Shown one piece after another: positions 6,734 through 49,373 of a stretch of DNA of 64,000 nt. This DNA is from Telopea speciosissima. Taxonomy: Eukaryota > Streptophyta > Magnoliopsida > Proteales > Proteaceae. The stretch covers positions 52,681,878 through 52,745,877 of the forward strand of contig NC_057926.1 of NCBI RefSeq assembly GCF_018873765.1, in the 5' to 3' direction. The position numbers and the translations under genes were made by a program. Each line of letters opens with the position of its first letter. Position 1 is the stretch's first letter. The notes under the pieces are model-generated. The model did no database searches and had not been told where the DNA came from. It was given only the letters and a program-made list of their open reading frames with translations.

Positions 6734-10243
<3,510 letters not shown>

Positions 10244-11157
10244 ATTTCTGCTTCCGCACACAGCGTTTCTCTCTGTGTTAGTTACTTGGCCGTTGGCACA
10301 ATTAAAAAGGCTCAGGTGATTTGTGACAGATAATAAAAATGCCCTGCTTTGTGAAGAAAATTACCAGAATACCATTAACTATATTGTGCTTAGCATACCC
10401 AAAGGGTGTAAATCGGTCTGGAATCGGATATTTGGTTCGGTGGTTCTAGGGAGTGTTGGTGTGATCTGGAACCGAATCGAGGCCGCCACCATGCCCCTGA
10501 AAATTCTGCTTTTCCAGGGTGAGTTTAGTCATTTAAAAAAAAAAAAAAAACATAAAAGCAATTCACCTGGAAACTGAAGTAAGTAAAATGTAAATCTGCA
10601 TTCCAAAACAGTAAGAGGCCCTCAAGTCCTCGTCTCCCTTCTGTTGTTCAATGGTATAAACTTAAATTGCATTGATAAATGATTCCTTGATATTCCCCCT
10701 CCCAACCCTTTTTTTTGTATTTTTTTTTTATTTTTACTAATTTATACATATTTATTATATTAAAAATAAGAAATAAGGGTGATTCGCCTTGATCGGGTTT
10801 GACAAGACTGAGTCATTAGATTTTCTGAAAGATGAGTTGAGACTTGAATCGAGGAAGAAAAAAATCTTTTTTCCATTTTTAGTTTCTTTTTTTTTTATGA
10901 GAAATAAAAACAGATTACTAAGAGAAAGAATAGATATTGTCGTGGTACACAAAAAAATCACATTGTCCTACTAGTGCAGTAGTGGCTAAGTATCCAACTA
11001 TGTCCAAAAACCATCAGATTTATACACAAAAGATATGTTCGTCTTAAAAAGATCAACAGACCGAGTTAGCAAATAAAAATTATCTCAAGTCCAAGCTGTC
11101 TTCTTAGGCTGAGTGAAAAGATGTGAGATCCTATAGTTTCCACACGAAACATCACGA

Positions 11158-11325
11158 ATCGTTATCCCCTCCAATTCGCTTCCCCCTTCAATCTCTCCAA
11201 TTCCTCACATGGGGGCGAAAATGATCACCCCACCCCTGCCCTAAAACACTGCCCAAGGTGGGGTCCACTTCCCCCTATTAGAGGGATTGGAGGAATTGGA
11301 GGTGGAGGTGGTAATTATTCCAAAC
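11158..11325. mobile_element. MITE, 'ttatc-cctcc' inverted-repeat family
   Basis: Imperfect inverted ends (gttatcccctcc... against the complement of ...ggaggtggtaatt) surround a core with 'aaaatgatcaccccacccc' and 'caaggtggggtccac'. The same architecture is seen at 49674-49849. Confidence 0.6.
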
Positions 11326-13755
11326 ATCATAGATGGAGATGTTCTTGCTTTTCACATGCTTCCAAGATGCCTTTTTAGTTCTTACCCCAAAAAAAAAAAA
11401 AAAAATTGCCTTTTTAGTTTCTTATTGGTTTTCTATCGGTTTTATCGGTTTGATTGTGGGTTCAGTTCAGTTTTTTGTTTTAGTTGGTCCAATCGGTTGA
11501 GTTTTTATAGGTCTTCAAAAACCCTAACCTTAAACCACTTGATAAGTTGGTTCGGGATGGTACAACCAAACCCATGGCATTTACCAAACTACCCTAAAGA
11601 TGCTCTTTCCTGCTCAATGAATGGACCATGGAAGATTAAGTGAATTTAAAGCTTGTAGGCAAAGAATAGTGGAAAATGAGATTTTGAGGGTCAAGCTTTG
11701 GTCATGGTCACATTCATGGATAAATGATATGTTTGTCATTTTTGTGGATACCATGTTATAGCATGAACAACAGAGAATTTCCATGTGTTTTAGTTTGGTT
11801 GTTTTTGTCAAGATTTTGATATTTGCCCAATATTTAGGTACAATTTAGGTGGTGATTTGAGTTCCTTGCCTAGTGCTGAGTTATCCAATGAGATTAGAAA
11901 CTCATGGAAGCATTTACACCAATCATAACTTCTTGATCTTGTTTCTTTTTAATTTGAATTCCATTCTAATTTTTTTTTTTGTGTTAGAATTTAGTCCAAT
12001 AGGGAAAGACCCACAAGGGGATAGAAGGGGCCACAAAGTATCAACACTTGATTCTAGAAGAGACCTGACTTGCTGCAAACGATAGGGAAGAAAGGGGGGG
12101 AGGGGGAAATGGTATCATTTAATTGGTACAAATATCATTAAGAGTGTTGAATTCTTGACCTCCTGGGAGAGCATGTACTCCAACTAGCAAGACTCCAACA
12201 AACTGAGCTAGCAGGTGTTCACAACCATTATAACTAGGTTTTTAATCAATCAAAGATCTAGTTTCTCTTCATCCATGGTGTTCTCCTATGATGAAGAGAT
12301 CTATGGGATCTGACCATAGATTAATTAGAAAAAGTATTTTAAGCTCATCCAATAAAGAATGAGAGTTAATGATGAATCCAATGTCTAGCTTCACATCATT
12401 TCTAGATCATGGATGAAGGAAAACTTAACTTATCAATTAATGCATGCATGACTACTAATTAAAATTTCGAAGTAATGATAAATAAAAGAGCATAGAATTC
12501 TATGGCCAAATGTCAAAGTAATTCAACACTTTATTTTCGTTTCTTAAAACTCTACTGTTCATGTGGAAGGGAGTACTCTTGCGTTAGGTCTTCCAATCCA
12601 TTCATAGCACAAGTTGGAGATGAAACAGAGTATTCCGTTTGTGAAACTATAAGTAGTAATTCTATTCTAAGGTCAAAACAAAACTATTATTGGTTCTGTC
12701 TATCCAAGCGTGTATTGTATCCCTTCATTCACTTGTACATCTCATCCTTTTTCCTTGGTTACTTTCTCCTTTTGTTTATATGGTAGGCAAGGATTTGATC
12801 AGCTTAGACTAAGAGAAGTTTATTCCCAATCAATTACCTTAGTCAATGGAGAAATTCTCGCCAATATCTTTGTAAACATATTCCTTCTATCAATACATTT
12901 AAATCACTGGATTTTGAATATCAAATTCGAATTTTACAAAAACTAAAAGAAAATCCTTAGATACAGAGAGAGATCTGGCTTTTCACTGAAGGGGGTTCGA
13001 CTAAACCCAAAATAGAGAGAGTGAACCCCCTCCGCCTGCTCTGGTGGTGTTTTCTCTACTTTGATTGATCTAATCAGCCGATTTATATCAGTATGGCTAA
13101 AGATATAAAACTGTAAAAAAAACCATTTATATCAGTATTCAGTATGGCTAAAGATATAAAACTGTAAAAAAATCCATTTAATTTTTTTAAAGAAATTTTT
13201 TAAGAAAAAAAGGGTAAACCTGACTAATCCAAACTGGTATTGGATTGTGGTAATGACAGAGACTGATACCGATTACTTATCTTGAATCTCTTCTTTCTTC
13301 AATTGTTATAGGTTTGTTTTTCACACTCGCTAAAGAAAGGTTGTGTTTGTCAGATTGAGCTCCTCTCCAAGGAATCCAGCGCCCGAAGCATCCAACCGTT
13401 AAGTAGTGCCATACATATCCCAATGGCTGATTGGGCACGCGCCAAGATCTTTGCACCACAGCCAGCCCTTAGATGCCCCCAGGCACTCCCTGCGCTGGGC
13501 ACCCTAGAGAGGAACCGGATCCGTGTCTGTACAACTACTGTGATCCGGCCTCAATAATGGAGGGGTAAGAGCAATAAACGGCTCAGATTAATTATAATCA
13601 GATCAACGGTTAAAATTTAATGTAGTGAATACAAGTTGTCAGGATTATGCACTACTCAACTTTTTTTCCTCTGCTTTTTTTACTTTCTTCATGAACTGAA
13701 AGCCTGAAACCGAGTGATTCTGTGGCAGATCTGCGATTATTTGAAGCTGCCGGCG
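11326..13755. other. Intergenic spacer, no gene recognised
   Basis: It holds short unsupported frames, an A run at 11390, a 50-bp direct duplication at 13079-13175, and a GC-richer block at 13370-13560 that looks like a decayed mobile element. The segment 12500-12950 has open frames with no recognisable family. The end of the spacer (13690-13750) matches scattered 5'-leader pieces of the response regulator at 24680-24830. Confidence 0.55.
13079..13175 (+). repeat. Two-copy tandem repeat, about 50 bp
   Basis: The unit 'atttatatcagtatggctaaagatataaaactgtaaaaaaa' occurs twice in a row, the second copy with a small internal repeat. Confidence 0.85.
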
Positions 13756-16700
13756 ATGAGCCTGAGAGTGCTTGTGGACGATGACACAACCTGTTTGAGG
13801 ATTTTGAAGCAGATGCTTCGGAGATGCTTGTATCTTGGTAAGTTCATCTTACTTAAAGATGATACTTGTAGTAGTTATGGATCTTGCAAGGGAGATACTG
13901 CAACAACGGATCAGTTTCCTGCTGGTCTGAGAGTGCTTGTTGTAGACGATGACACAACCAGTTTGAGGATTTTGGAGCAGATGCTACGGAGATGCAAGTA
14001 TCTTGGTAAGTTCATCTTACTTAAAAGGTGAATTTGATGTTCGTTGGCTTTGATTTCAATAGTTAACTGACCTATTTTTGCTTTGTTCAGTTACAACTTG
14101 CTCCCAGGTTACTATTGCTTTAAACTTAGTTTGGGAAGGAAAAGGTTATTTTGATGTGATAATAAGTGATGTTTATATACCTGATATGGATGGATTTAAG
14201 CTTCTTGAAAAAGTTGGGCTAGAGATGGACTTACCTGTTGTTAGTGAGTAATTCTTTTTTTCTCTTCCCCTAATCAATTTTATTGGTTATTTAGGTTTGT
14301 AAACTATAATTTGATATTTCTTCCATAGTGATGTCTTCTGTAAGGAAAAAGTGGAATGAGAATAAAGAAGATGAACAATCTGGTTGTGAAGATGAGGGTG
14401 AATTGGAAAATGATGAAGATGATGAAGATGACCCGGGTACATCAAAGAAACCCCGTGTAGTGTGGTCGGTGGAACTGCATCAGAAATTTGTCTGTGCTGT
14501 GAATCAGCTTGGAATTGATAGTAAGAGCCCCTGATTATTACCCTTTGTCTTAATTTCTTTATCATATTCTTTACTGTCAAATATCATCTTGGGATTTAAG
14601 TGATTGCATTTAGATGACACTGTAAATTTTCATTTTGGTTCATGGTTCTAAGTATACGTATGGTACGTACCAGTTTTGTATGTAGCCGATCCCGATAATA
14701 TGCCGATACTGCATCGGTGACACGGTACGGACAAGAGGTAGAATGGTCAGAAAATCTATTTTTTAAAGGAGATTTAGGGGTAATTTTGTCCGATACGACT
14801 GATCCATTCTGGATATCGATACGGTATCGTATTGGTTTTGCAATTGAGCGATACCATGAACTAGAACAATGTTGTGGTTGGCTATTTATTTGTTCATTTC
14901 TTTAGTATTGTGCTTTGCCATTAATTAATGATGAATTTCCTGGCTTGACTGTGCAGAGGCTGTTCCCAAGAGAATTCTTGAATTGATGAGTGTTCCAGGT
15001 TTAACTAGAGAAAATATTGCAATCCATTTGCAGGTTTGATTCTAACTGAGCTGGATTTTGATGTACTGATGATTTTGAGAAAATATTGCAATCCATTTGC
15101 AGGTTTGATTCTAACTGAGCTGGATTTTGATGTAGTGATGATTTTATTTTATTTTTAATTAAGATGGGGATAAATAAGTGAATCAATTATAGTGGCCATT
15201 TTAAAATAGTTTATGGTTGCCAAACTAATTTTTTATGTTGCTATTTAGCTTTCAGTATTGTCAATTAACTGTACATAATTTTTCACTCAAGAGTTTCCAT
15301 CACATTGAGGAATTTAAGGGGGTATTCACCTCCTATCCCCCAAGAAAAAGGCCAAGGATAACAAAAGAGAAAAAAAAGAGTTTATTCTCAATGTTTTCCA
15401 TCTTAACCTAAAAGTACAGAAATTCAATGTATCAGTATAGATATAACGCTGCTACCAAATTGTATTCCAATGAGGGTAATAGAGACATTTCACATGTGTA
15501 TTCGAAAATTGTGTGTGACAATGATACCTTTTGATAATGACGTAATGATGTCACTTTCCTTTTTTGAAAGCCCTTTTATACCCCTATTGATGCAGGGTGC
15601 ACTCCCATGGATCAACCCGAATCCGTTTGAGAATCCAAACCAAGATGAACCGGATCCCAATCCTGTTTTGGTTCAGTAGGATATTTAGGATTTATTTTAT
15701 TTGGTTTTAAGATATGTAATTTTTTATTTTGAGTAGCTATTAGACACGTAGGGATAAATTCTAATTTGAGTTTTATTGAGTTTCTACTTTTATTACTCTC
15801 AAGTGTTAGGAAGTAATTAGGAGTCTTTGGTTTCTGGATTTTATAAATATATGTGTAACCCAACGATGGGAGTAGATTTGACAATGAAAAGACAACTGAG
15901 TATCTGGGTTGAAGCCTGTGTGGTCTTGCATGAGCACTATTCTTCTTCCTATGTGATACCCTCTCTCCCCTGCAACTCTGATATTCTTCTCCTCCTCCTA
16001 ATCAAAAGAACTTTTGGGAATAAGACAAGGGGCTATTAAAAGAAAGTATCGAGTTCTAAATACATCTATAGAGGTGTGATCATTCAGACTTTCCTATGAG
16101 AAAGAGTACAATATGGCTATACAACCACATCGATTCCACTAATCTATTATATAATTTTTCAAACATATAGATCACCATATTAAAACTTCTGAAAACTTGA
16201 CACTTGACATACATAAACTTCATCTATGTTGACTAACATTATTTCTGATTTTTCAATGTGCAGAAATACAGACTATGTTTAAAGAGGATAAGTGGAGTAG
16301 CTCAGCAACAAGGGGGGATTTCCAATTCATTCTGTGGGCCTGTGGAATCAAATGCAAAACTTGGTTCCTCTGTTCCTTCTGGGTTTGGAACCTGTACACC
16401 TAATTCTCTTGGTTCTGTTGGTCCTTCAGTCAATTTTGGGGGGCTAAACATTCAGAACAATAATATGTTGATGCAAATACTACAGAAGCTGCTGGCGATG
16501 AGCCTTAGTATGACAGCTAGTAGTTATGGATCTTGCAAGGCTGATACTGCTACTACGATGGATCAGTTTCCTGTTGGTCTGAGAGTGCTTGTTGTGGACG
16601 ATGACATAATCTGTTTGAGGATTTTGGAGCAGATGCTTCGGAAATGCATGTATCTAGGTAAGTTCATCTTACTTTAAGGTGAAGATGATGTTCTTTGGCT

Positions 16701-17198
16701 TTTGATTCAGTAGTCAAATGACCTAATTTCGCTTTGTTGCAGTTACAACTTGCTCTCAGAGTACTATTGCTTTAAACCTGCTTCGAGAAAGAAAATGTTC
16801 TTTTGATGTGGTAATAAGTGATGTTTATATGCCTGATATGGATGGATTTAAGCTCCTTGAATATGTTAAGCTAGAGATGGATGACTTACCTGTTATTAGT
16901 GAGTAATTTTTTTTCCTTTCCCCTAGTTATTAGATTTGATCACGGGTTCAAGTCTTGGAAACAGCCTCTCTGGAAACAGGGGTAAGGTTGCGTACATTTG
17001 ACCCTCCCCAAACCCTGCTAAACGCGGGAGCCTTGTGCACTGGGTACGACCTTTTTTTTAGGCAAATTTTATTGGATCTTTAGGTTTGTAAACTAATTTG
17101 ATATTTATTTCATAGTGATGTCTGCTGATGCGAGAACCAATACTGTGATGAAAGGAATTAAACATGGGGCTTGTGATTATTTGATTAAGCCCGCTTAG
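13756..17198 (+). CDS. Chimeric type-B response-regulator-like gene (receiver-GARP-receiver)
   Basis: A rearranged paralogue of the response regulator at 25054-37796. Predicted exons: 13756-14005 (exon 1 present twice, the first copy read through), 14091-14243, 14329-14520, 14957-15033, 16264-16657, 16743-16898, 17116-17198. All keep GT-AG sites and phase, giving 1305 nt (434 aa) without an internal stop; using the earlier donor at 13838 gives 378 aa. The first receiver keeps [11 protein letters not shown] but lost, by a 210-nt in-frame loss in its third exon, the Lys end. The GARP DNA-binding domain is present ([19 protein letters not shown] reads IHLQ). A shortened C-terminal exon then runs directly into a second receiver with [16 protein letters not shown] and DYLIKP, which ends at a stop after a 4-base loss relative to the intact gene. 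It may be expressed, or be a young pseudogene; sequence alone cannot tell. Confidence 0.55.
14638..14873. mobile_element. MITE-like insertion in intron of the chimeric gene
   Basis: It begins 'ttcatggttctaagtat' and ends with the near-complement 'ataccatgaactagaac'. The same intron of the intact gene (30840-30920) lacks it, so it arrived after the copies separated. Related ends appear at 60562. Confidence 0.6.
15008..15143 (+). repeat. 69-bp tandem duplication across an exon end
   Basis: The end of the fourth exon, its donor and the first intron bases (15008-15076) are repeated at 15077-15143. The intact gene has one copy at 31031. Confidence 0.85.
15588..16000 (+). mobile_element. Solo LTR in intron of the chimeric gene
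   Basis: It aligns with both LTRs of the element at 32193-34739, beginning TGATGCAGGG after the same pentamer CCTAT. Flanking intron sequence on both sides matches the intact gene's intron, so this is the same ancestral insertion, now reduced to one LTR whose far end is missing. No internal region remains. Confidence 0.8.
16939..17060 (+). mobile_element. SINE (Au-like), 5'-truncated
   Basis: It starts at the 'cacgggttcaagtcttggaaac' box and ends 'gagccttgtgcactgggtacgacc' plus a T run. It sits in the last intron of the chimeric gene and is absent from the matching intron at 30231-30310. Confidence 0.8.
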
Positions 17199-17449
17199 AA
17201 GAGTTGAAGAATATATGGCAGCATGTTGTAAGGAAAAAGTGGAATGAGAATAAAGAAGATGAACAAGTAGTGACAACAGATATGACCAAGAAGGGAAGAT
17301 TCAATAGACGGTTGTGAAGGTACCTTTGCCCCTTAAATGTAATGTAGGCAATTCAAGCCAAAACACCAAGGGAAGTGTATATGGTTGGTTTCTTAGTATA
17401 TTAGTATTAATTAATTCAAAGGAGTGATTTGATTCAGATTAATTGAAGG

Positions 17450-21149: not shown

Positions 21150-23170
21150 AATAGAAATATAGGCTCTTAAAGAGTGTCAAAGTTTAGCCTGAATCGATCG
21201 GACCAGTCAAAACAAACTGGTTCAGTCTAGGCCAAATCAATCATACTTTATCAATGTAGTTTTGATTGGTATTTTTACGGTTCCACTTGAAATCGAAGCC
21301 AAATTGAATTCACGAAATACATCGATCAAAATAAAAGACCTGATCGAACTTGATAAAAAATCGTTATCAGACCAACAGAAACCCAATAAGAAACTAAAAA
21401 CACACATACAAAAAAAAATAGTTCTCTGTGAGGATGTGTACTTACCACTCTAGATACATAAGGGGCAAAATGACCACTCCATTTCCCATGAAAGGTGGAA
21501 ATCCTTCCCCCCATGATGCCAATGCTTGTGCTCTCGTTGGCCTTTGGAGCATTCAGAGGGCACACTATCCCATAGAGACTGTCGACCGCCCCCAAAAAAA
21601 AGATTTTCTCAATGCTTTATTTATGTATACATGTAAACCCAAAAATCGGATCAGACCGAACCTAATAGTAAAAAATGGGACCAAATTGGATTGAAAATCG
21701 AAAACGGTTTGGTTTGGAATTGACACAAATCGGATGGAATCGACTATTGACAAAGAGTGAATGGACCCACCCAAACAAAGCAGTTCAATCTAACGGCTGT
21801 AAAAGGATTATTCATGTCCCCACAAAAAATCCATTTGTCCTTTCTAATCATTAGAACTAACCTATCCTGACGCAGCAAAAGCTAAACTTCAAAGAAAGAT
21901 TGATTAGAAGCAAATCATCTAAAACTTAGGACTAATGACCTTTGAAAGAGAAAAGGACACTGTTCTTATTTACTTGGGCCCACTTAATATGGTGGGCCAT
22001 ATCTGTATGGTATAGCCTTTATAGCCATTTTGTCATTTTGATGTGGGGACCCACTCACCCACAACCCGTTGGTTTCTTTTTATGGGCCCAATACCAACAG
22101 AGCTTCAAGCCAAAGCCAGGTTGGATACCATGAAACCCAATTAATGATAAAAGGTATGGGTCCCATTAGGTCAGTGAGTTAGTGACCTATCAAGCTGAAA
22201 CATAGGTGGAATTAGCTGTGAACCAGCTTTGATGGGCCTTTAGGGCCCATAAAGGCCCAATTCCATGAAGCTTTGTTCTATGGATTTGCTTTCACTAAAT
22301 GGGCCCACCAACTTCTGATTGCTCTAGTTATTGCAGTTACTTGAGTAGGGTTTAAGCCTTTCACCGTCCAAACCTTATTTTCCGCCGCTATGGAAGTGGG
22401 CACAGACCTTATCCTAAAAGAGTTAAAAAAGATGTTGATTCTATATTCTTCTTTTCTAAACAGGTATGGTTTTGTCAAACCATGATTGGACCGGTTCTGT
22501 TTGACCGGGTTTGATTCAATTTAGCTTGAATATATGGGGAAAACTTTCCTACATCTTCCTAAGATCGCTGACCAGAGGTGTAGTCCCTGCACCACCAATG
22601 CGGGGTCAATGAGAGCGCGCACAAAGGCATCAACAGAATATAAATGGGTTTTTTTTTTATTTCATCAGGTATGGAGTGATAATTTTGTATGCTCCTGTTT
22701 TTTGGTGTAGGGGCCATGTGATCAAACAACATTTTTTTTCCTATATATGTGTGAAAAGAGAGATAATTATCTAAGCAAGCGGCATAGGGAGAACACCAAT
22801 TAGGAGGTGTTTTCCATGATCAGTCAATAGGGGCGGGGCGAAGATAGGATACAGGAGAGAGATAGAAACAAGCGTTGTTGGGGTAGTAGTCCACACGAAT
22901 AGCTTAGATAGACTTTTCCTATAAGAATATTCTAATCCCTTATTGGTGTGGTGTGCAGATTTTTTATTACATTGCCCTTGTAGGAAATCTTCCCCCAAGT
23001 TTCATCTTGTTTTCGGAGTTCTCAAACTACATTTGGTTGTCCAGAATTTAAAAAAATGGAATTTTCAATTAAACTTTAAAAAATAAAATGTGAAACTCAT
23101 GTCCTCCCCCCCCCCCCACCCCCCCCCCCCCACATTTTTTACCCTTTTAATGATATAAACTTTGTAGTAT
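21150..23170. other. Intergenic, no gene recognised
   Basis: Decayed repeats (21180-21720, and a 'gaggcaaaatgaccactcc' segment at 21460-21600 related to 50580-50720) and a poly-C tract at 23106-23132. No coding signal. Confidence 0.5.
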
Positions 23171-23374
23171 TATAAAAAAGGAAAGAGAACGCTACCTAAT
23201 CGCATGCGATGTGCGGCTCCTACGCTTAAACACAAGATTTCATGAAATTACACCCTCGTGGATTTTTGCCTTTTCATGGGGGCAAGACAGTCATTATGGG
23301 ATGCCATGTGTCTTCTAGGTGCAAGGGCCATGCGCTGCAAATGATTAGGTAGCATTCTTTTCCCCTATAAAAAA
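23171..23374. mobile_element. MITE with 9-bp target-site duplication
   Basis: Element 23180-23365 is flanked by tataaaaaa on both sides. Ends 'ggaaagagaacgctacctaat' and the complement of 'attaggtagcattcttttcccc' form the inverted repeat. A related element is at 50819-51011. A 9-bp duplication suits Mutator-like elements. Confidence 0.8.
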
Positions 23375-24660
23375 AATAACATACAGTTCCCTGATCATAG
23401 TGAAATTTTACAATCTATTGTTGACCATTTGACTCCCTTGATAAAATTGGACCCAAATTGACCATCGTTAGGGGATGATTCAAATTATGTAAACATTTCT
23501 TATCTTATATATTTTTTTCGGGTAATAATTTCCTATTCTATTTTGCTGCTTGACACCACTAACCATTTCAACAACACTTTTCATGCTTGATTAACTAATT
23601 CAATCTCATTGATTAAAATTTCTTGAAGGGAAAAAGAACTCGATAATGTGGTTCCACTATCAAGACATTCCTGTGTGAAAGTACCACTCTCACCCCATGA
23701 AATAAAAAATTACATCTATGTTGATGCCTCTCCATGCGCTCTTATTGATCTTTGAACTGGTGTAGAATGTAGATGATGCACAATCAGACAACGATCTCTT
23801 ACCCATCTAAAACTCCTAATTTAAATCATCACTACAATAACATTTTGTTGGATTGCTAACATCTTCTAAAAAACTTATTTATAGTTTGTGGTTCGATATA
23901 AAAATTTTCTTTTCTCAGGATAGGATCACTACGATGGCAGAGTGCACTTTTCCACTAAGATGGGATGGGAAATTACTTGTCACGTAAGGAGTTTTAATGA
24001 GGAGAGAGAGTGCAGGGTCCATGGGTGTCACTAAGAGGTCGTGGGCAAGAATCTGCACATTGGTGTTGTGGCAATTCCTTTATTAGCTTGAGAAAAACAA
24101 TTTTTTTCCCTTATCCAATTGGACCCAAATCCCACATTTTTTGCCCTTTAAATCAAAATCCATCCACCACCATCTCTTCACCTACTATAGATTCACATGT
24201 AAGCAATCTATAGGAACCAAATCTAGCCTTATTGAAACTACTTCATAAGTCTGGTGAACCAAACCACCAAACCTGTTGAAAATGGATTTTCCCATTTGTG
24301 GTCCATATTGGTTCGGGTTCAACCAATGGTCCAATCAGGGTTATTGAGCCAGCGAAGCCACAGGGAAAAACCACTGAACCTGATCTGATATCTGACCCAA
24401 GCCGCAGCTCCAGACTGAGAATTCTGCGGCGTGGTTCGCTGCCTCTTATGAGGGAGTCACTGAGTCAGTACTCACACTCACTAATATATAAATATTAAAT
24501 AAATGATTAAAATATATATATTTATTATTAAATTAATTAATTAAATAAAAGAGACAGCTTAAATCGTTAATGGAGGTTTCTCCACTGGCCTCTCGCTGTC
24601 TTTTGGTCGTCTTCCCTTCTTTACGGGTCCTTTATTTTATTTGTTTACTAAATTTTACTT
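23375..24660. other. Spacer upstream of the response regulator
   Basis: No gene seen. 23680-23810 resembles 41370-41460 (decayed repeat). 24480-24550 is very AT-rich and precedes the region matching the gene's leader. The promoter must lie here, but no element is distinct enough to name. Confidence 0.45.
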
Positions 24661-24917
24661 TTTTCCCTTTCTCTGCTCAAAGACTGAAACCGAGTTCGAC
24701 ATCTCTGGATCAGTGGATCGATGTTTCTGAACTCAAAGTGAGCTGTAATTCGTCGAAGATTCTCGTCTTATAGACGAACAAAGGAAGATATAACAGTGAT
24801 TCCGTGGCAGATCTGTGATTATTTGAGCTTAGAAGGATCGGGACAGAGTACAAGAGTCTTTGAAGGGAGATAAGAAGGAAAGTTTTTTCGGATTTTCGTT
24901 GTAGATCTGGTGGGGAA

Positions 24918-25015
24918 ATGGTGGTGAGGTTGGTCTCACGACCTATTCATAGGAAGGATCCGCCATGGCGGAGGATCCAGTTGATTTGAGTTTGCTTGGG
25001 AGGAAGAAGACTTGA
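24918..25015 (+). promoter_or_regulatory. Two overlapping upstream ORFs in the type-B ARR leader
   Basis: uORF a runs 24918-24989 (23 aa, context gaaATGG). uORF b runs 24965-25015 (16 aa, MAEDPVDLSLLGRKKT) with a near-ideal start context gccATGGcg, ending 38 nt before the main ATG at 25054. A shorter third uORF (6 codons) begins near 24720. If the leader is transcribed as drawn, these could lower translation of the main frame. The leader's extent is inferred from its resemblance to pieces at 13690-13750. Confidence 0.45.
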
Positions 25016-25053
25016 GTTTGAAGGGTTAGTTGTGAGATTCTCTGTGCTTGGTG

Positions 25054-28000
25054 ATGGCTACTGTACAGAAACTGTCGGCGACGAGTCTTAGTACAACGGC
25101 TAGTAGCTATGGGTCTTGTAAGGTTGATACTGCTGCAACGGATCAGTTTCCTGTTGGTTTGAGAGTGCTTGTTGTGGACGATGACACAACCTGTTTGAGG
25201 ATTTTGGAGCAGATGCTTCGGAAATGCATGTATCGTGGTAAGTTCATCTTACTTTCTCTCTATTTGTTGTTTAATTATGGCATCTAAGTTAATTTGACTG
25301 AATTTGGTGCAAATTCTGTTTAAAGGTGAAGATGGATGTTCGTTGACTTTTTTTTTCAGTTGCCCAACTTAAGATGCTATTTGGTGTTCTGAGTTTTTTT
25401 TGTTTGAATAATTCAAATGAGTGGGTCTTCATATTGGGATCTGTCTATTCCTTAGTATGATGGGAAGTAGGATACTTAGTTGGCACTCATGACAAATGCA
25501 AATGAACGAGGTACTTGGAGGGTCAGAATTACTATTTCTTTGTTGAAGCAGTTCCATTGTTGTTTATAGACAGTCCTGGGTCCTCAGAGATTGAACGGGG
25601 ATATTTGTTATCTATGTTCCAGAACTATTGGATGTGTGGACTCTTCCATTCTTGTTCTAAGGCTCATCCACTTTTCTGGCTATGGAAGACTAGCAGTGGA
25701 GTGTGACTGCTCCTTTGTTTAAGGCTTGATTCAGTCCCTTGTGGTTTATGTTGTCAAAGCAGCTAACCATGTCTGCTTGATTCAGTCCCTTGTGGTTTAT
25801 GTCATCCTTCACATCCATGAAGTGAGGCTAGATGGTTAGTCTGTTTGAATATTTCATACTGTTAGATTCTGAGGTGGGTAGGTTGTCCTACCGCATTGTA
25901 GATCACTTGGCTGACAGTGCAGTCTTGGGAAACTCTATGTGATGGGCCTGTTGTACCAGAGTGAGACATTGATATGGTTTCAGGGTTCAACACGAATAGG
26001 TGTTTGACATAGCACATGCTTTGAATGTTATAGAGATTTAAGTAGAAAGTGGAAGTGTCAATGTCTATGTTGTACATGTACATGTACATGTACATGGGAT
26101 GCCTAATCTTGCTAGTTTTGGAAAACAAAATATGCTTAGATAGCGTTGAAGAGAGATTCATCATGGAAAAAGGAAAAGAAAAAAGTGAATGATCAACACA
26201 TCTGAGGTCATATTTCAATCTTCAACTCTTTTTCTTTCTTTGTAACTTCTCAGTTGTTACCTAGTTACAGTATAAAAGCATGCAATCTTACTTGGTGAAT
26301 ATCAAGTATTCCATACATACAAAAGGCATAGAAAGGAGGAATATGTTAACTAAAATGGGAATCTTCTTTTAAAAATTCTCAGCCTTTGTTTGTAACTCAC
26401 TGACTAGATTGATATAGAAAACTTGTTTTTGGATCTGTAAGGAAAGCGATTTTGGTTGAATAGTTATTAAGGAGTACAGAGAAAGGAATTGACCTTCTAA
26501 TGAGGCTTCTGAATAATTCCAATTGGGGATAATGTAACCTATCTTATCATTTTTTCTTTTGTGTTTGGGGGGAGGGGGGGAGGTGGGGGGGGGGGGAGGG
26601 GGGAGGGGAGGGATTTGATTGTAGACTCCTTCAGTGGGAGGTAGAAGGTGATTTGATTTAGCCAGTGTTGAAGGGACCCCTCTGGGAATTTAAACTTGAA
26701 CATAAATCTTGCATTTGGCAACGAGTCAATCATGTGGAAGTAGTTTATGGGTGATTCTAGATTATTAGCTCTTTGATTTGAACTTCATATCATCATAGAA
26801 ATGATTGTGGAGTGAGATTGTTAGGTGAAACTTGGTAGTGGTTCGGTATGAAATATTAAAGGATATTTCTGGTGCCTGATGGTTTTTGTGTCACTACAAT
26901 TTGTCCCTTTCTCTCACAAAGTCAGACATGAAAACAACATTTTTTTTTACTGCAATGCAGCGAGGCAATCATTCTGCCTCAAAAACCAATTGGGTTTTCG
27001 TTTCATCTCTGCTTTCTTCATGAATAATCGAATGTCAGAATATGGGGCATGGTTTGGGACTGAAGCCAGTGGCTTAGCGAAGATGGAGAAGTGGATTTTA
27101 TTATTCAAAAGAATCATGGGCATAAGTGATGCAGGAGCATCTGGGGATACCTGATGGAGGGGTTAGATCTGCTCTCATGTATTTGAGGATTAATTATGTA
27201 ATCAAGGGTGATTTATTTTTTTACAGCTTTAAGGGGGGAGATTAGCTGGTCGTAGGGTATGTTTGGTGGTTCCCATATGTGAAAATAGTTGGTTATTTGG
27301 GTTCTCTTGGTTGTGTTTATTAGGATTCCTTAAATTTTAAAAAGTAAAATTTTATTCTGAACATATGTGGCCTATAAGTGCTTGTATCAGTTTAGGAAAC
27401 TAGAGTCTTGATTAGCTGTTGTCCGAGATGTAGATATTTCTTTGGATTTTTTTTCCTATAAATAGATGTACCTATGATGATTATGTGTTATTGGATTAAT
27501 CTTGTTTGATTTGGTAATGGTCTAGCTGGCTCTTCTCTCTCTCTTTTCTCTATCGGGTAAGAGGTATTTCCCTCTCTTCTCTCTTTCCCCGCTACTGGAG
27601 ATTTTCTCTTTCATTCTGTTGTTATCCTCTCTCACTTCTTTGCCCCTATTGCTTCTCTTTATTCTTTGTATAAGCACAATATTTTTCTCTCTCCTCCTTC
27701 CATCGAATGCTACTTTCAGATCCTAAATCTTAGGATCTAACTTCCCTGCTTTATCTCCTCCACGACTTCCATAGATCTCCCTTATTTATTTGGGTTATCC
27801 CCTTTTGTTGAATCTGGTATATTTTCTTAACATCCTGTTTCTACCTTCCATTAATTCTGATTGTTTGATCTGAGATAAGATCTGAGCAATCTTAGATATT
27901 AAATCTGTTTGGTAGATCTTGGTAATATCATTTCTTGAGACAGAATCTTAGATTGGCCCATCACCTACGAATCCATCTTGATCATTCTGCATCACAAGTT

Positions 28001-31000
28001 AATGTGTTAAAATTTGTTATGGATTTTTGGGTGCAGCATCCTTCAAATGGCAGGTAGTTATGAAATACTCGGACTAAAGTTAGTAGTTTGATCAAGGTGG
28101 AAAATGATGAGAGGATCTATTTCTGGCTTGATTTCTTATAATGATATCTGAGTCATTAGGTATATCATCTGTGGATGTACATGGTTGTCATGTATCATCA
28201 TGGGTGAGGAACATGACATGGCCATTATGTAGATGTATGCGTGCATGTTCTTAAGATGGGAACAAACATATACAATTTGAATTACATGCACTGAACCACA
28301 AAACCAACGTACACATGCAATTTGGATATCTTCGAAGTAAAACATTCCAATTTCCCAAAGTAAAAAGGAGATTTAACTGGCTTCTTGTGCTTAGATTATG
28401 GAAGAGATTCTATTGTTCTTTTGCCTTTTTTTGGATATGTTATTATATATAGTTTAAAGAGTAGCCCTTGATTAAGTTATACAGAGGGATGCACATAACA
28501 TTCTTACATATTAAGATGTATTGTAATACATGCTACTAAAACTAGTCAAAGGAAGAAATTTAAAAGAGGTAAAATATGAAAGCAAACATTTGTTTGGTAC
28601 TCCATTAGGCATGGTACCCAAAAGAAAAAATAAAATTGTTGATTAGCCTTTATGGCAAAGATGTAATGTTATATGCATGACATGACTCATGTGGACATGA
28701 GAAATCAATGAAGGGGAAGTGTCCATAGAAACAGTTGGTTCGAGTTGAATCTGAAGATATTAGGCTTGATGCAATGGGTAGTTGCATGGTGACCCTGATT
28801 AAACCTTGATTTGTTGCTAGAGTTCCACTAGATAAATTTGGACAAGGAAAATAGGGTGAGGCTCAAACTATTTTATCGTCTTCAAGGCAGAAAAATATGA
28901 TTCTCTGGTACTAAGAATTCCTGGAATTTAATCTTATGCTCCATGATTCAAGGAGAAGATTGCTTTCTGCTGTTTGACATTTTTAGTAAATATGGCTCTT
29001 GGATTTTTTCTTATGCAGTTGCATTAGCATTTCATTCTATTGGAGACCGAATGACTATTATTAATTTTTCCAATATTTTATTGTAAGTGAACTTTCTTAC
29101 ATCAGAGATTTCAGTTGGAACTTAGATAAAATGGTGGCAGAAGCAGTTGCATGGCCTTAGTGCAGTGCTTGCTATTTCCTCTGGTAAATGTAGATGGTTT
29201 GATGCAGTAGCACTCGACTGGTTGGGCCAGCACGACCAGGTTTGGAAACCCAAACCCAGACGGAGCCGGCCCAACCCGGGTTTTTAGTCTAATTAAGGCT
29301 GGTAGTGGTTTAGTTTGTAGTCTTTTATTTTTAAATAATATCATATTTTGTTTTAAATATGTTACATAGGAATAGCTGAATAGGAGATAGAGTTTGAGTC
29401 AGTTTGGGTTTTCCATTCCAGTTAAGTGTCTTTGTTTATTTCTTCTCTTTATATACTTGTAATCAAAGACAGATTGTAGATTTGAAATAGAAAGTTTATT
29501 GAATTTGCTCACTGTGAGTGTGGCGTGACTGTGGCTACGAGTTTCTTCTCCTTCCTCCTCTTCACACCCATTGTTATCTTCCCATTCTCCCATTGGCCTT
29601 CCACCATGGTTCTTAACCTTCAAATATTGTGATACAAGATAGAATGATGGGATGAATGGGTAGTTCTTATGTTATCTTAATATGTTCCAAAGAAGCCATA
29701 TAAGAAGTGTGCTAACTAATTAAGAGAATCATAGTCATCATGTAAGCTTTACTTCCCACTATTTGAAGGGGCTACTTGAATCCTGCCCTACCATGTTAGT
29801 CTATCTGAGCTATATGTTGACAAAACGTGCATATTGCAAGAACTATTGTTCATTGATGTTTTCATTGGTCATGTGTAAGTCAACTTTCTTCTATTACCTA
29901 TGGGAGCAAACCTTAAGTGTTGTCAGACCATTGGCCAATCTATAAATGACTTTATCTTTCATACCATTATCATCCATCTGAACATCATCCTCTTGAATAT
30001 TCTCCTTCCATGGATTTGTTGTTTTAGTTGTTTCTTGCTTACGTCAGAAACAATGACCTACTTTTGCTTTGTTGCAGTTACAACTTGCTCCCAGGCTACT
30101 ATTGCTTTAAACCTACTTCGGGAAAGAAAAGGTTCTTTTGATGTGGTAATAAGTGATGTTTATATGCCTGATATGGATGGATTTAAGCTCCTTGAACATG
30201 TTGGGCTAGAGATGGACCTACCTGTTATTAGTGAGTAATTTTTCCCCTTCCCCTAGTCAAAATTTATTGGATCTTTACGTTTGTAGACTAATTTTCTATT
30301 TCTTCCATAGTGATGTCTTCTGATGCGAGAACAAGTGCTGTGATGAAAGGCATCAAACATGGGGCTTGTGATTATTTGATTAAGCCCGTACGCTTAGAAG
30401 AGCTGAAGAATATATGGCAGCATGTTGTCAGGAAAAAGTGGAATGAGACTAAAGAACATGAACAATCTGGTAGTGCAGAAGAAAATGATCGACATAAACG
30501 AGGAGGGGATGATGCTGACTATGCTTCTTCCATTAATGAGGGAACAGATGGAAGTTGGAAAGGTCAGAAAAAGAGGAGGGATGCTAAAGATGATGAAGAT
30601 GAGGGTGAATTGGACAATGATGACCCGGGTACATCAAAGAAACCCCGTGTAGTGTGGTCAGTGGAACTGCATCAGCAATTTGTCAGTGCTGTGAATCAGC
30701 TTGGAATTGATAGTAAGAGCCCCTGATTATTACCCTTTGCCTTAATTTCGCTACCATATTCCTTACTGTCAAATATCATCTTGGGATTTAAGTAATCACA
30801 TTTAGATGACACTAAATTTTCATTGTGTTTGGCTATTTATTTGTTATCATCTTGGGATTTAAGTAATCGCATTTAGATGACACTGTAAATTTTCATTGTG
30901 GTTGGCTATTTATTTGTTCATTTCTTTAGTATTGTGCTGTGCCATTAATTAATGATGAATTTCCTGGCTTGACTTTGCAGAGGCTGTTCCCAAGAGAATT

Positions 31001-34000
31001 CTTGAATTGATGAATGTTCCAGGTTTAACTAGAGAAAATGTTGCAAGCCATTTGCAGGTTCGATTCTAACTTGCTGGATTTTGATGTACTGTTGAATCTT
31101 TTTTTTTTTTTTTTTAATTAAGGTGGAGTTAAATAAGTGAATCAATATTCGGAAGACCTTAATTTAGCTTTCTTTGTCCTTTTTATTATTTTTATCTATA
31201 TAAACATGAGCTATTGAATTCTTTTCACTATGACAGTGGTCATTTTAAAATAGTTTATGGTTGCCAAACTAATTTTTTATGTTGCTATTTAGCTTTTAGT
31301 ATTGTCAATTAACTGTAAATAATTTTTTCATTTAAGAGTTTCCATCATATTGAGGAATTTAAGGGGGTATTCACCCTCTATCCCCCAAGAAAAAGCCCAA
31401 GGATAACAAAAGAAAAATAAGAGTTTATTCTCCATCTTTTCCATCTTAACCTAAAAGTTCAGAAATTCAATGGGTCAGTATAGATACAATGCCTCTACTA
31501 ATAATTACTGTAGGCATAACCTAAATCTTCGAAAGAAAAAAATGATAATTTATTCAACAGTTATAAGAATATTGTCTCTATAAAAAAAAAAGAAAAAAAG
31601 AAAAAGAAAAATCTGAGGGTTGAGTTGGAGAAAGGGAAGTAGGTTTGAATAAAAGAATAGGGGTATATCACTAAAATTTATAAATGCTTCATTTGTGGTT
31701 GAGAAAGGATTCTATTTTATTCAACATTTCTGAACTGTCTTGACATTGAATAAAATGTACTGATGTCAGCTGATATTTCGTTAGTTCCTTCCTACTTAAC
31801 AATTAATGATCATTATCAGGACCTTATGACTGTAACATGCACAATGGATCATAACTGTATTTATTAATTCTAACCATGGTTAATTCTGAAGTTGTATTCT
31901 GCTCTCTCTCTCTCTCTCTCTCCTCCCCCCCTAAAATTTTGGTAACAAAAATTTTATTTTTATTTCTCAAGAAAGATTTGTTTATCATTATATTATATAT
32001 GGGATTTTCTTGTTGACACCTGGTGTCAAATAGTTTGTAACCTTACTTTTTTGCCCTTTTGGTACAATTTTTTTCCAATGAGGGTATTGGTGAGATTTCA
32101 CATGTGTATTTGAAAAGTGTGTAACAATGATACCTTTTGATAATCACATAATGATATCACTTTCTTTTTTGAAAGCCCTTTTATATCCCTATTGATGCAG
32201 GGTGCATTCCAATGGATCGACCCGAATCCGTTTGAGAACCCAAACCAAGATGAACTGGATCCCAACCTTGTTCTGGTTCAGTAGGATATTTAGGATTTAT
32301 TTTATTTGGGTTTAAGATATGTAATCTTTTATTTTGGGTAGCTATTAGACACGTATGGAAAATTCTAATTTGAGTTTTATTGAGTTTCTATTTTTATTAG
32401 TCTAAGTTTGAGGAAGTAATTAGGAGTCTTTGTTTTCTGGGTTTTATAAATATATGTGCAACCCAATGATGGGAGTAGATTTGATAATGAAAATATGAGT
32501 TAAGTATTTTGGTTGAAGCCTGTGTGGCTGTGCATGTGTAATCTTATTTTTTTCCCCCTCCCCCTTTCTTCTTCCTATGTGATCTCCTCTCTCCCCTGCA
32601 ACTCTGATATTCTTCTCCTCCTAATTGGACTTCCACCAATTTGGTATCAGAGCCGAAGGATCCATCTCCTTCCCAATCAATTTCTTCTTCCCTAATCTCT
32701 CTTTCCTGTTATTGTTCTGCGGTGCAGTGAAAAAAAAATAAAATTCCAGCGACCACACCTTCCCTTCGTTTCCAACCTCTTAGTAAAACCCAACCCACCT
32801 TCCCTTTTCCTTTCTTCCTCACTGTAACCGCGAACCAAAAAAAAAAGAAAATAAAAAGAACTCTGTCGGAAAAACAGAGAAGTCGAAAACCCTACCCCAG
32901 CCCATTCCTTCGATCCCACAGAATAACTCCACCGCCCTCCCTGTTTTCCCAACAACCTTCGATTGCCCCTCCCCTGTTTTAGGTTCCCGCCGGCAACCAA
33001 AAAACCCCGAATAATATATACCTGGTCTCAAGTTCCCGCCGCGAGTCATTCTCCTTCCGTCGAAGTCCCAGCGGATCCACTTACCCTCTGGAGTAATCGG
33101 CTTCCTCCCTCACATCGCAGCATGTCTTTCTCCTTCCGTCGAAATCCCAGTGGATCCACTTACCCTATGGAGTAATCGGCTTCCTCCCTCACATTGCAGC
33201 ATCTTCCTTCTGGTTTCCTCTCTGGTTACACAGAGAAGAAGACTCCAAGTGAAGGCGGTAACCCTCTTTTCCCCTTTCTCGTGTATGCCCCCTTCCCACA
33301 CAGTTTCATTTTCTCTTACCAATTTTACCCCTCCCTATCCTCTTTATCTTGATTAATCTCTTTTTATTTAGTTCCATGTTTGTCCCTCATTCTCCCCCAT
33401 ACATTAGGTCCCTTGTGCGATTTGACCCTACTATCCCCCCACTAATTTGTTTAGTTCTTTTTTTTTTTTCTTTCAGATTTGCCCCCTCCCTTCTATTCTT
33501 ATTCTACTTTGCCTTTTTTTAGTAGTTTCCAAGTTTACCCCTCCCCACCCATCGTTACACCACACTTTCTTTTCTTCTCTTTAGTTTGCAGTCCAATAAA
33601 TTACAATTCTGCCATTGTTATCAGAAACCCACTACAACATCATGGAGGTTAATCGATACGATTTACTTAGTGATGGGTTCCATAAACTGCAGACAACTTT
33701 CTAATTTGACGACAGGTTTTCGAGAGCTTGCCAATATTAACAACAACTTCTGTGATAAGATGTTAAGCATGATACAATCTTTAGAAGGTGGATCAGATGT
33801 GGAAGAAAATGTGGACAACGAAAGCAACGATCAAATTGAAGTACACGGTCCGATCAGGATTGAAGTTGAAGAATTGATTGACGGTCCGATTTCGGTTGTG
33901 AAACCCCACTACAACATCTTATCACAGAAGTTGTAACAACTACTTCTGTGATTAGATGTTAAGCATGATACATTCTTCAGAAGATGGATCAGATGTGGAA

Positions 34001-37000
34001 GAAAATGTGGACAACGAAAGCAACGATCAAATTGAAGTGCACGGCGATCAGGATTGAAGTTGAAGAATTGATCGACGGTCCGATTTCAGTTGTGAAACGC
34101 GACGATCAGATTCCCATAAAAAATATGTTGTTTGCTAACGACCATCAGAAGATCGTGAAGGTTGATCATGAGATGTGCTGGATCATCACCCCCATCAAAG
34201 CCTATGTTTGTGGATACCGATCGAGTGGTACTGATTCTCTCATTTTACAAAACTTGTGGACAAATTTTTCTTAACACCTGGGGAATTGATGTAGGTGCAC
34301 TCCCATGGATCGACCTGAATCCGTTTGAGAACCCAAACCAAGATGAACTGGATCCCAACCTTGTTTTGGTTCAATAGGATATTTAGAATTTATTTTATTT
34401 GGGTTTAAGATATGTAATCTTTTATTTTGGGTAGCTATTAGACACGTAGGGAAAGTTCTAATTTCAGTTTTATTGAGTTTCTATTTTTAGTAGTCTAAGT
34501 TTTAGGAAGTAATTAGGAGTCTTATGTTTTCTAGGTTTTATAAATATATGTATAACCCAACGATGGGAGTAGATTTGATAATGAAAAGATAACTGAGTAT
34601 TTGGGTTGAAGCCTGTGTGGCTGTGCGTGTGCCCCCCCCCCCCCCCCTCTTTTCTTCGTCTTCTTCTTCTTCTTCCTATATGATCGCCTCTCTCCCCTGC
34701 AACGCTGATATTCTTCTCCTCCTAACTGACCCTCCACCACCTATCTTAAAGAACTTTTGGGAATAAGACAAGGGGTTATTAAAAGAAGGTGTCAGGTTCT
34801 AAATACACCTATAGAGGTGTCATTGAGACACTACATCGACTCCACCAATCTATTACGGTAATAAATTAGATTACTCTAGTAATTGCAGTAATATCCCTGA
34901 ATAGATAAATATGGACAGAAATAGTCCTCTATGCTTGATAAACTATTTTCAACAGTCTTCCTCAAGCTGGAGCTTATATAACACCATACCCAGCTTGTAA
35001 CAAAATTGAATAGAGGGACCATTAAAAATAGATCCAGTACAAATGTCACCTAGATTATTGGAATATTCATATAAGGAGTTGAAATAACTTTACACATCAC
35101 TCATCACAGATGAAGTGGTAGTCAACCTCATATCATAAAAACACAGGATGCGTGGTTGTCAGAAAATATTTCCATAGGCTTATCAATAGAAAATCCCAAC
35201 TCGTCCATGAGACTAGAGCCACATCAATTCACATCTAGTATGAACGATAGCTCTATATTCTGCTTCTGCATTTGAGTGGGCCAATTTAGTCTTATGTCGG
35301 TACGTAACCAGATTTCCATCAAGAAACGCACAATAGCCGTCATAGATCTTCTGTCATCATCATTTCCAGCCCAATCTATATATATTTTTTCAAAAATATA
35401 GATCACCATATTAATATTTTACCCCCGTACTTTCAATGGTTGATCTGAAGTTGTCCCAAAGTTGCTACAGGTGAATTTTCTACCCATTTTTTTGGCTTTA
35501 TATCTCCATATGGGGAAATCAGATTGGGTTAAAGCTTATTAGACTAATAGATGGTGATTCCACTCCCCAAAAAAAAAAGAAAAGAAAAAGATGGTGATTT
35601 GAACACCATGTCCACAAAATTAACCGCCAACAGTGCTGCCATGTGTCAGACATTTGGACTGTCAAGATATGCTTATCTCAATGGCCATCAAGATAAAATG
35701 AACGGTCAGACTGCCGAATCCAATGATCTGTGAGAAGCCTGATACAAAGGTTACTAAATTTACTATCTAATAATGAGAATGCATGGACAAGCTCCACTGG
35801 TAGAATAATGCATTATTTTATGGTCGTAGGAGTTCACAAATTGTATATCATGTTATGAAACATCATGATATAAATTTTATATTACATTTTGTGTTATCTA
35901 GGCTTTGATAATTGTGATTTCTGATATCTGTGGTTCAATGGTTCGACCAGATGCTTTGAATGATATTTTGTTTGGTAGTTATTGTAGTGCAAAAATGATC
36001 CAGGGGTTAGTATAAGTGTAAAAGCTTCCATTTCATGATCATGTGTCATTTGTAGTCAGGTTTTTGGCTTCGATCCTTTCCCCTAAGGTTTAGCAACATT
36101 CTGAAGGCTGGATAATTATGATCAAGAAGCTGTGCAGTAAGGCTAATTCCAAGAATAGTCTAAGGATCATTCCTGTTGCCACCTCTCTGTAGTTCCTAGT
36201 AAGGTTAACCTGGATTGGTATTTAGAGTTAAAGTTAACACATTATAATCCAATTATTGTGTATTTATTTGTGCTCATAGTCCGTTGAGGTTGCCAACCTC
36301 ATTTAGTTGGGATAAGGCTGAGCTGAGGTTGGGACGCAATGGAGATGGTATAGTCATCTGTAGTCATGAAAACTGTTAAAAACCATTTCAGTCTTCTGGT
36401 GCCTGCTCAAAATCTAGTGGTCCATGGGAGGTTGTGATTGTTAATCTAAAACCTCACAGCATTATGTTCATTATATGTTGTTAAACCAGCTGACGTGTGA
36501 TTTATGTTTGGTTTTCAAGTATACCAATGATCAATACGACAAGAGATTATACTTCTGGAAACTTGACACTTGCCAGACGTTAACTTGATCTGTGTTGACT
36601 AACAATATTTCTGATTTTTCAATGTGCAGAAATTCAGACTATATTTAAAGAGGTTAAGTGGAGTAGCTCAGCAACAAGGGGGGATTTCCAATTCATTCTG
36701 TGGACCTGTGGAATCAAATGCAAAACTTGGTTCACTAGGCAGACTTGATATCCAAGCATTGGCTGCCTCTGGCCAAATCCCTCCTCAGACACTGGCTGCT
36801 TTGCAGGCTGAGCTTTTTGGTCGACCAACAGGTGGCCTGGTGTTGCCAGCAATGGACCAACCAGTTCTTCTTCAAGCATCATTACAAGGACCGAAATGCA
36901 TTCCAGTTGAACGTGGTGTGGCGTTCGGTCAACCCTTAATAAAATGTCAATCGAACATAGCCAAACAGTTTCCTCCATCCAACATTTCTGTCGAGGATAT

Positions 37001-48051: not shown

Positions 48052-48234
48052 TTTTCTACTGTTTTTTGCATTAAAAAAAGACGTACCCAGTGCACGAGTC
48101 TTCTGCCACTGCGGGGTCTGGGGAGGGTCATTATGTACGCAGCCTTACCCCTGGTTTTGCAGAGAAGCTGTTTCCAGACTTGAACCTGTGACCACTTGTT
48201 CACAATGGAGCAGTTTTCTTCTGTTTTTTGCATT
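48052..48234 (-). mobile_element. SINE (Au-like) with about 20-bp target-site duplication
   Basis: The insert 48073-48213 is the reverse complement of the SINE family ('gtacccagtgcacgagtctt' to 'ggtcacaggttcaag'). The flanks ttctactgttttttgcatt and ttcttctgttttttgcatt are near-identical. Confidence 0.85.
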
Positions 48235-49373
48235 GGTATTGTCTAATATTCCTTTGGGAACAATTATAAGGAGTCGTCCCTCATCAGGAAGGCCTACTCT
48301 ATTTCCTGGCAAGTTGATATAATATGATATTCATGCCAAAACAGGGTAGGGTGCAGCAGCAAGTGGTAATCATACACCAATCCCATGCTGAAGAAACACC
48401 CCATTTGATGGGAATACTAAAAGCCTAAAGCACTGGTCAAAGTTCAGAGAGGTTGAAGGCAAATCTGCTGGCAAAGCTACATATCTTTCATGGAAAATCT
48501 ATCAAACAGCATGTTATACCATTTGGGGTTATGCTAGAAGTTCTGACAAGTGCAAAACTGCAACATAAAATTTGAAGATACATATCTGATATATAAACAT
48601 GAATTCTGGACAATGTACAATTTGAATGGGGACGTGTTACAAACATAGTTGTTAAGGCGATTAGGCAACCCAAGGCGTTGGAGGGGCGCTTAGGTGACAA
48701 GGTTCCTAGGCGTGCATTAATGACTATATGTTATATAGCAATGATAATTTATATAATTATGTTTATGTGCAACATAGAATCCATATCAATGTAATATGAT
48801 ATTATTTTGCTAGTAATGGCCTAATATGAGAAAACCAACATATATTTAAAAAAATATATTCATCCGAAATAAGTTTGAGTTTGGAAACAGCCTCTTTGTA
48901 AAAGCAGGGGTAAGGCGGCGTACATTATGACCCCTCCCCAGACCCCGCAGTGGTGGGAGTCTCGTGCACTGGGCATGCTCTTTTTATTTATTTATTATTT
49001 ATATTACATAATAACTTTAAACTTGTCAAGTGTCAACAAGACGCAATGTTGTCTTGGACCTAAGAAAGAGCCTGGACGTCTAAGTGGCACCTAGGTGATG
49101 CCCGGACAACTACAGTTACAAAGCCTCGAGTCAAATGTGCATTACATAGCTTGTAGTTCTACACTGCAACTGTGAATTTTGATTCCCTTGCCTCACTTGT
49201 TTCACATTGTTAGCTGCTGACCTATCCAAGATGCTAATTGATAACTATGCAGAATGCTGTATTATCAGTCATTCTCAGGCTATTAAGGAAGCAATTTGTT
49301 GGACTTCAGGGTGCCTTCATGAGCAATTCTATTAAAATCTGTTTGAAATTAATTGAACTGATTCTCAATTCAT
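48235..49373. other. Spacer with a dispersed 'aggcg' repeat, no gene
   Basis: 48650-49125 starts 'gttgttaaggcgattaggcaacc' and ends 'cacctaggtgatgcccggacaac', partly complementary, as in a decayed foldback element. The SINE at 48885-48985 sits inside it. Confidence 0.5.
48885..48985 (+). mobile_element. SINE (Au-like), 5'-truncated
   Basis: From 'gtttggaaacagcctctttg' to 'gtctcgtgcactgggcatgc' plus a T-rich tail. Confidence 0.8.

Follow-up and report, generated by a model that had tools for sequence, protein, structure and literature searches.

Can three broken copies of a type-B response regulator gene, lying end to end in the genome of Telopea speciosissima, still encode a protein? The question is raised by a window of 64,000 nucleotides (C11:52681878-52745877, free of N letters, in an assembly of 823 Mb). 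A sequence-only reading of this window, made without database searches, had proposed that incomplete copies of such a gene are joined into an open receiver-GARP-receiver chimera that could act as a competitor or a rewired regulator. The anatomy described in that proposal held up in our analysis, but the proposed product is not supported. The array, which we divide into fragments Z, A and B, is probably an unprocessed pseudogene derived by tandem duplication, possibly not long dead, and most likely yields no functional protein today.

Comparison by blastn reveals copies of the exons and introns of an intact type-B response regulator gene at 13763-17266 (numbered from the first nucleotide of the window), upstream of the intact gene and in the same direction. 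The intact gene, which we take as the probable parent, begins 7.8 kb past the end of B. Three head-to-tail fragments make up the array: Z (13756-13837) contains exon 1, A (13870-16485) contains exons 1-4 and part of exon 5, and B (16486-17266) contains exons 1-2 and part of exon 3. Their features are collected in Table 1. The blocks shared with the intact gene span intron sequence at approximately 82-95% identity, and an intron-bearing genomic copy thus lies near an intact one. A retrocopy was considered and is excluded by these introns together with intron inserts common to the array and the intact gene. The intact protein scores 85.3 bits against the receiver profile of Pfam and 33.5 bits against Myb_DNA-binding, and a paralog on C3, at approximately 17.987-18.019 Mb, has the same exon structure. 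A tree of A, B, the intact gene and this paralog (300 sites) groups A with B at a support of only 61, with three site patterns for this grouping and two and one for the others.

As the sequence-only reading had noticed, the shortened C-terminal exon of one copy runs in frame into exon 1 of the next. The joint lies at 16485/16486, where a short TACAG stretch is common to both sides, and a 303-bp query across it finds a single full-length match in the genome, namely itself. All splice sites are present and the frame stays open through the joints for 434 or 378 codons, the former being the length first reported. The claimed order of a defective first receiver, a GARP domain and a second receiver with both Asp residues and the Lys also proved accurate; in B these three residues are retained by sequence and by profile match.

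Closer examination of the exons reveals lesions that would disable such a gene. At each of these sites the C3 paralog agrees with the intact gene. The Z exon has lost 72 nt and 3 nt. Exon 3 of A has lost 105 nt at the end of the receiver, which takes the receiver Lys and everything after it, and a net 105 nt comprising most of the linker; the simplest split of the net figure, judged by eye, is 120 nt lost and 15 nt gained. The first receiver is consequently not a complete N-terminal receiver with its two Asp residues and Lys. In exon 5 of A, parental sequence is retained only as far as the equivalent of window position 37112 (16485, at the joint), a net 261 nt is missing from its interior, and the long C-terminal activation region is absent. 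The exons of B carry two gains of 3 nt and one loss of 4 nt. This last, in exon 3, leads to a stop at 17196-17198, right behind the Lys-Pro of the receiver, so that the second receiver breaks off ahead of alpha-5, covering positions 1-100 of the 111 in the profile. Everything of the parent beyond exon 3 of B is missing. Finally, a duplicated exon-4 donor at 15103 would, if used, bring an in-frame TGA one codon past the normal exon end, and it is predicted to compete with the donor that the chimera needs. The array thus combines a lost start, loss of most of exon 5, a frameshift in B and a competing donor followed by a stop.

The substitution pattern was analyzed with a codon model (our own script) in which the copy branch had its own ratio of nonsynonymous to synonymous substitution (omega), A and B being fitted separately with the intact gene and the C3 paralog as the other tips; 11 codons of the acidic stretch in A exon 3 and a three-codon gap edge in exon 5 were excluded. 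Across the whole gene, omega between the intact gene and its paralog is 0.25. For the A branch (247 codons) omega is 0.695 (approximate 95% range 0.4-1.5), with a twofold log-likelihood difference (2dlnL) of 0.83 against 1 and 23.4 against a background of 0.087. The GARP domain of A (71 codons) gives 2.24 (2dlnL 0.69 against 1, 19.8 against a background of 0.016), and its receiver part (107 codons) gives 0.418 (2dlnL 3.19 and 5.86, the latter against a background of 0.102). The receiver exons of A, with seven fewer codons (100), give 0.475 (approximate 95% range 0.2-1.25), exons 3-5 give 1.13 (from 0.4 up to 15, where the grid stops), and the C-terminal stretch alone (56 codons) reaches the fit bound and is uninformative. 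For B (134 codons) omega is 0.444 (approximate 95% range 0.2-1.0), with 2dlnL of 2.56 against 1 and 4.45 against a background of 0.135. Both fragments are therefore compatible with omega of 1 and both differ from the background, with partial constraint possible in B and in the receiver exons of A.

Counts of individual changes, which omit those not assignable to one branch (nine for A, two for B), agree with these fits. Across codon positions 1, 2 and 3, A has 17:10:10 changes and B has 8:8:8, with no third-position excess. A carries 28 nonsynonymous and 9 synonymous changes and B carries 15 and 9; given a neutral nonsynonymous share of approximately 0.74, the probability of so few nonsynonymous changes is 0.66 for A and 0.15 for B. 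Together, the omega range and these counts render A as a whole indistinguishable from neutral. The sequence-only reading had named dN/dS near 1 in all domains as evidence against its proposal. A taken together and its exons 3-5 taken alone both give such values, while the receiver exons of A (0.475) and B (0.44) fit either a value near 1 or partial constraint. Strong purifying selection on the fusion was looked for and not seen in the codon models or the codon-position counts. The signal of positive selection on A is not significant (16 nonsynonymous and 2 synonymous changes in exons 3-5, P 0.11).

The exons of the copies have diverged from the intact gene by 7.1% and their introns by 8.6%. 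Within A, the GARP part of exon 3 together with exons 4 and 5 (14436-15033, 16264-16485) differs from the intact gene by 3.5-4% and exons 1-2 by 8.5-11%; four of six intron blocks diverge by 8-10% and the other two by 12.7% and 2.4%. Gene conversion between A and the intact gene is possible.

The GARP domain of A was also compared residue by residue. The intact gene and its C3 paralog have identical amino acids in this domain, and A carries eight replacements (eight nonsynonymous changes versus one synonymous). These were compared with 19 GARP sequences from the same genome, including the intact gene and its paralog and leaving out the row of A itself; 4 of 24 matches, which lacked a locus, were left out. 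The serine of the SHLQ motif and the valine two residues ahead of it are invariant in all 19 (19/19 each), and both are Ile in A. The Asn-to-Ser change occurs in 2 of the 19, and the Phe-to-Tyr change is toward the common residue, Tyr in all seven sequences reaching that site (three of which read past the exon end). A Tyr-to-Cys change falls at a site that is Tyr in all four sequences covering it.

In the excerpts of PMC11903765 the type-B motif is given as SHLQ(K/M)(Y/F), whereas A reads IHLQKY. A tyrosine of the GARP domain is described as docking into the ARR1 receiver (excerpts of PMC11903765, PMC10454580), and a homology model of ARR2 predicts DNA contacts for S262 and Y270 (excerpt of PMC10454580), to which the changed serine and tyrosine of A correspond in a hand alignment. 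A putative product of A would probably bind DNA differently and lack the receiver lock. Counting against altered DNA binding, the Pfam Myb_DNA-binding score of the A domain (34.4 bits, cut-off 24.4) is not below that of the intact one.

Several observations weigh against a dead gene. One is that the open frame has survived somewhat better than an unprocessed pseudogene would lead one to expect. Of 18 gaps in the aligned introns (1286 bp), 2 are multiples of three, whereas the aligned exons (1261 bp) and large losses hold nine events, eight of them multiples of three. Gap phase differs between exons and introns with a Fisher P of 0.00017, or 0.008 without four short triplet-type changes; against a plain one-third null, the exon gaps give P of 0.001, or 0.045 without the same four. 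One frame break is seen where 7.8-11.0 are expected from all 18 intron gaps (P of at most one, 0.0035-0.0002). With 11 intron gaps kept, 9 of which break the frame, 4.4-6.4 are expected (P 0.066-0.013). The seven set aside (sizes 4, 43, 82, 1, 1, 22 and 2) are near or hold homopolymers or lie at a block edge, and since none is a multiple of three their exclusion lowers the contrast with the exons; one further 1-nt edge gap in Z was dropped before counting. There are no nonsense codons where 2.2 are expected (P 0.11), and both joins, Z/A and A/B, are in frame. Combining the milder frame figure with the nonsense figure gives P of 0.001-0.007, uncorrected for the post hoc choice, and P is lower when every intron gap is counted. 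Because the test was post hoc and the feature was picked for its openness, this better-than-chance preservation is suggestive only, and most likely the open frame was kept in part by chance. The omega values also leave room for a selective history, as partial constraint could apply to B (approximately 0.2-1.0) and to the receiver exons of A (approximately 0.2-1.25), and some past constraint is conceivable there.

Other explanations were weighed. An expressed chimeric gene would yield a GARP protein whose C-terminal receiver takes up phosphate from AHPs or acts as a competitor of the intact regulator. Every splice site, the 434 or 378 open codons, the shortage of frame lesions, and the omega of B together with its two Asp sites and Lys are what such a gene would show. 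Constraint is nevertheless not visible in the GARP domain or in exons 3-5 of A, whose omega ranges are wide; Ile replaces a serine found in 19 of 19 sequences, Cys replaces the docking tyrosine, the frameshift ends the second receiver without alpha-5, a second donor would compete, and the parental promoter region is unrecognizable. We consider an expressed chimera unlikely, and the functional product, competitor or rewired regulator envisaged by the sequence-only reading is unsupported. A variant in which a young translated receiver-GARP-receiver protein is selected for its frame and free in its amino acids, with a GARP domain released from the receiver lock and a putative AHP-accepting receiver at its C-terminal end, seems to us quite unlikely.

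The selected unit, past or present, may instead have been A alone, as a receiver-free GARP protein resembling the activated receiver-less ARR1, with B as a chance tail. The losses in A do take away the last part of the receiver while the GARP domain stays in frame, the docking tyrosine is lost as well, and ARR1, ARR2 and ARR11 are reported in the excerpts of PMC11903765 to be more active without the receiver. With an omega of 2.24 and no constraint in the GARP domain, a change at the serine predicted to contact DNA, and most of parental exon 5 absent, this too is quite unlikely. Least probable are joints that arose as assembly errors, through collapsed or mis-joined copies or haplotypes. The A/B joint does occur only once in the assembly, but the divergence of the copies from the intact gene (exons 7.1%, introns 8.6%) exceeds what haplotypes would be expected to show, and the window contains no N.

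An unprocessed pseudogene remains the most probable explanation, and from the homology, joins, lesions and substitution pattern we infer the following order of events and the lack of function. A type-B response regulator gene would have been tandemly duplicated, introns included, and the extra DNA, at least in part, duplicated a second time. Deletions and joins would then have produced the three head-to-tail fragments. These are presumably young enough for the splice sites to have been retained and for what is left of the exons to link up in a single open frame. The first extra copy may have been a working gene for a while before it died, which would explain both why the frame was retained and why the omega values are intermediate. 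Sequence evolving mostly like a dead gene makes an ordinary pseudogene probable, not a new regulator.

Table 1. Features of the array and of the intact neighboring gene (window coordinates).
Feature	Position	Strand	Remarks
Dispersed genomic repeat just 5' of array	13353-13522	+	At least 42 other matches in the same genome (40 of 329 candidates scored), 72-88% identity, many over 13353-13522
Remnant of parental 5' region	13674-13744	+	Two pieces fused by deletion
Fragment Z, exon 1	13756-13837	+	Lost 72 nt and 3 nt
Fragment A, exon 1 copy	13870-14005	+	Without parental start; open on read-through from Z
Fragment A, exon 2	14091-14243	+	Middle of receiver, holds phospho-acceptor Asp
Fragment A, exon 3	14329-14520	+	First part of GARP; end of receiver and most of linker gone
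Fragment A, exon 4	14957-15033	+	Second part of GARP; Val and Ser of ENVASHLQ motif both replaced by Ile
69-bp tandem duplication	15008-15145	+	Exon-4 end and donor
Fragment A, first part of exon 5	16264-16485	+	Net 261 nt missing; receiver-docking Tyr replaced by Cys
Fragment B, exon 1	16486-16657	+	Joined in frame to A exon 5; one extra codon
Fragment B, exon 2	16743-16898	+	One extra codon
Fragment B, exon 3 as far as premature stop	17116-17198	+	
Fragment B, remaining exon 3 homology	17199-17266	+	Out of frame
Intact type-B response regulator gene	25054-37796	+	5 coding exons, 660 aa; nearest full copy
Exons of intact gene	25054-25237, 30078-30230, 30311-30712, 30981-31057, 36630-37796	+	

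Upstream of the array, the parental 5' region survives as 13674-13715, 79% identical to 24658-24695, and 13713-13744 (32 bp), 94% identical to 24795-24826. A comparison of 11000-13760 with 22500-25060 yields no further parental homology, only a 12-base chance match (E 0.88), and the putative parental promoter region appears unrecognizable ahead of the array.

Other duplications and repeats occur in and around these genes. A stretch of approximately 540 bp in intron 4 of A (15458-15996) has two counterparts in the same intron of the intact gene (32066-32622, 34285-34829), which points to a further duplication within that gene. Intron 2 of B contains a short dispersed element of at most approximately 130 bp (16937-17066), with other copies at 45125-45246, 48065-48194, 48881-48988 and 2336-2391 (80-84% identical), which we take to resemble a plant short interspersed element. 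Two related open reading frames (ORFs) on the minus strand, 1164-1565 and 9803-10261, give weak PAS matches and are, judging by their motifs, presumably ZTL/FKF1-like. The surrounding blocks also match (194-1758 versus 7665-10398, 74-85% identity), and the pair appears to represent a second local duplication adjoining the array. Pieces of an RNA-dependent RNA polymerase gene lie at 55054-59209, with PF05183 in two ORFs.

The receiver and GARP exons of the array are copied from an authentic type-B response regulator of the ARR1/ARR10 type, and the closest solved structure to the A GARP domain is that of ARR1 (8xas, E 5.1e-30). Unlike authentic members, the array has a first receiver without its end and Lys, a GARP domain altered at otherwise invariant sites, little of parental exon 5, and a truncated second receiver placed C-terminally. 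With unprocessed pseudogenes it shares introns, a nearby intact copy, truncations, a frameshift and no detectable constraint in A. Excerpts of the literature describe tandem clusters of non-canonical, truncated type-B regulators in Medicago, where all but two of the tandem copies show weak expression (PMC6518804), and tandem copies in rice and Brassica rapa (PMC5975490). There, too, local duplication gives truncated or residue-losing copies, but these are described in the excerpts as single genes, whereas the array consists of three fragments end to end; the same excerpts make no mention of a receiver-GARP-receiver form (PMC6518804, PMC5975490). Among the papers listed by literature searches, on such plant regulators and on type-B pseudogenes, no title or abstract beginning describes a gene of this kind, with a second receiver or with one at the C-terminal end, which does not prove that none is in print.

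If expressed, the array would be, to the best of our knowledge, the first plant type-B regulator with a C-terminal receiver, and a test of whether position matters for the lock that the receiver places on the GARP domain. As the pseudogene it probably is, the array offers a worked example of how tandem duplication and deletion can give rise to long chimeric frames without stops, which gene prediction could report as a gene of unusual architecture.
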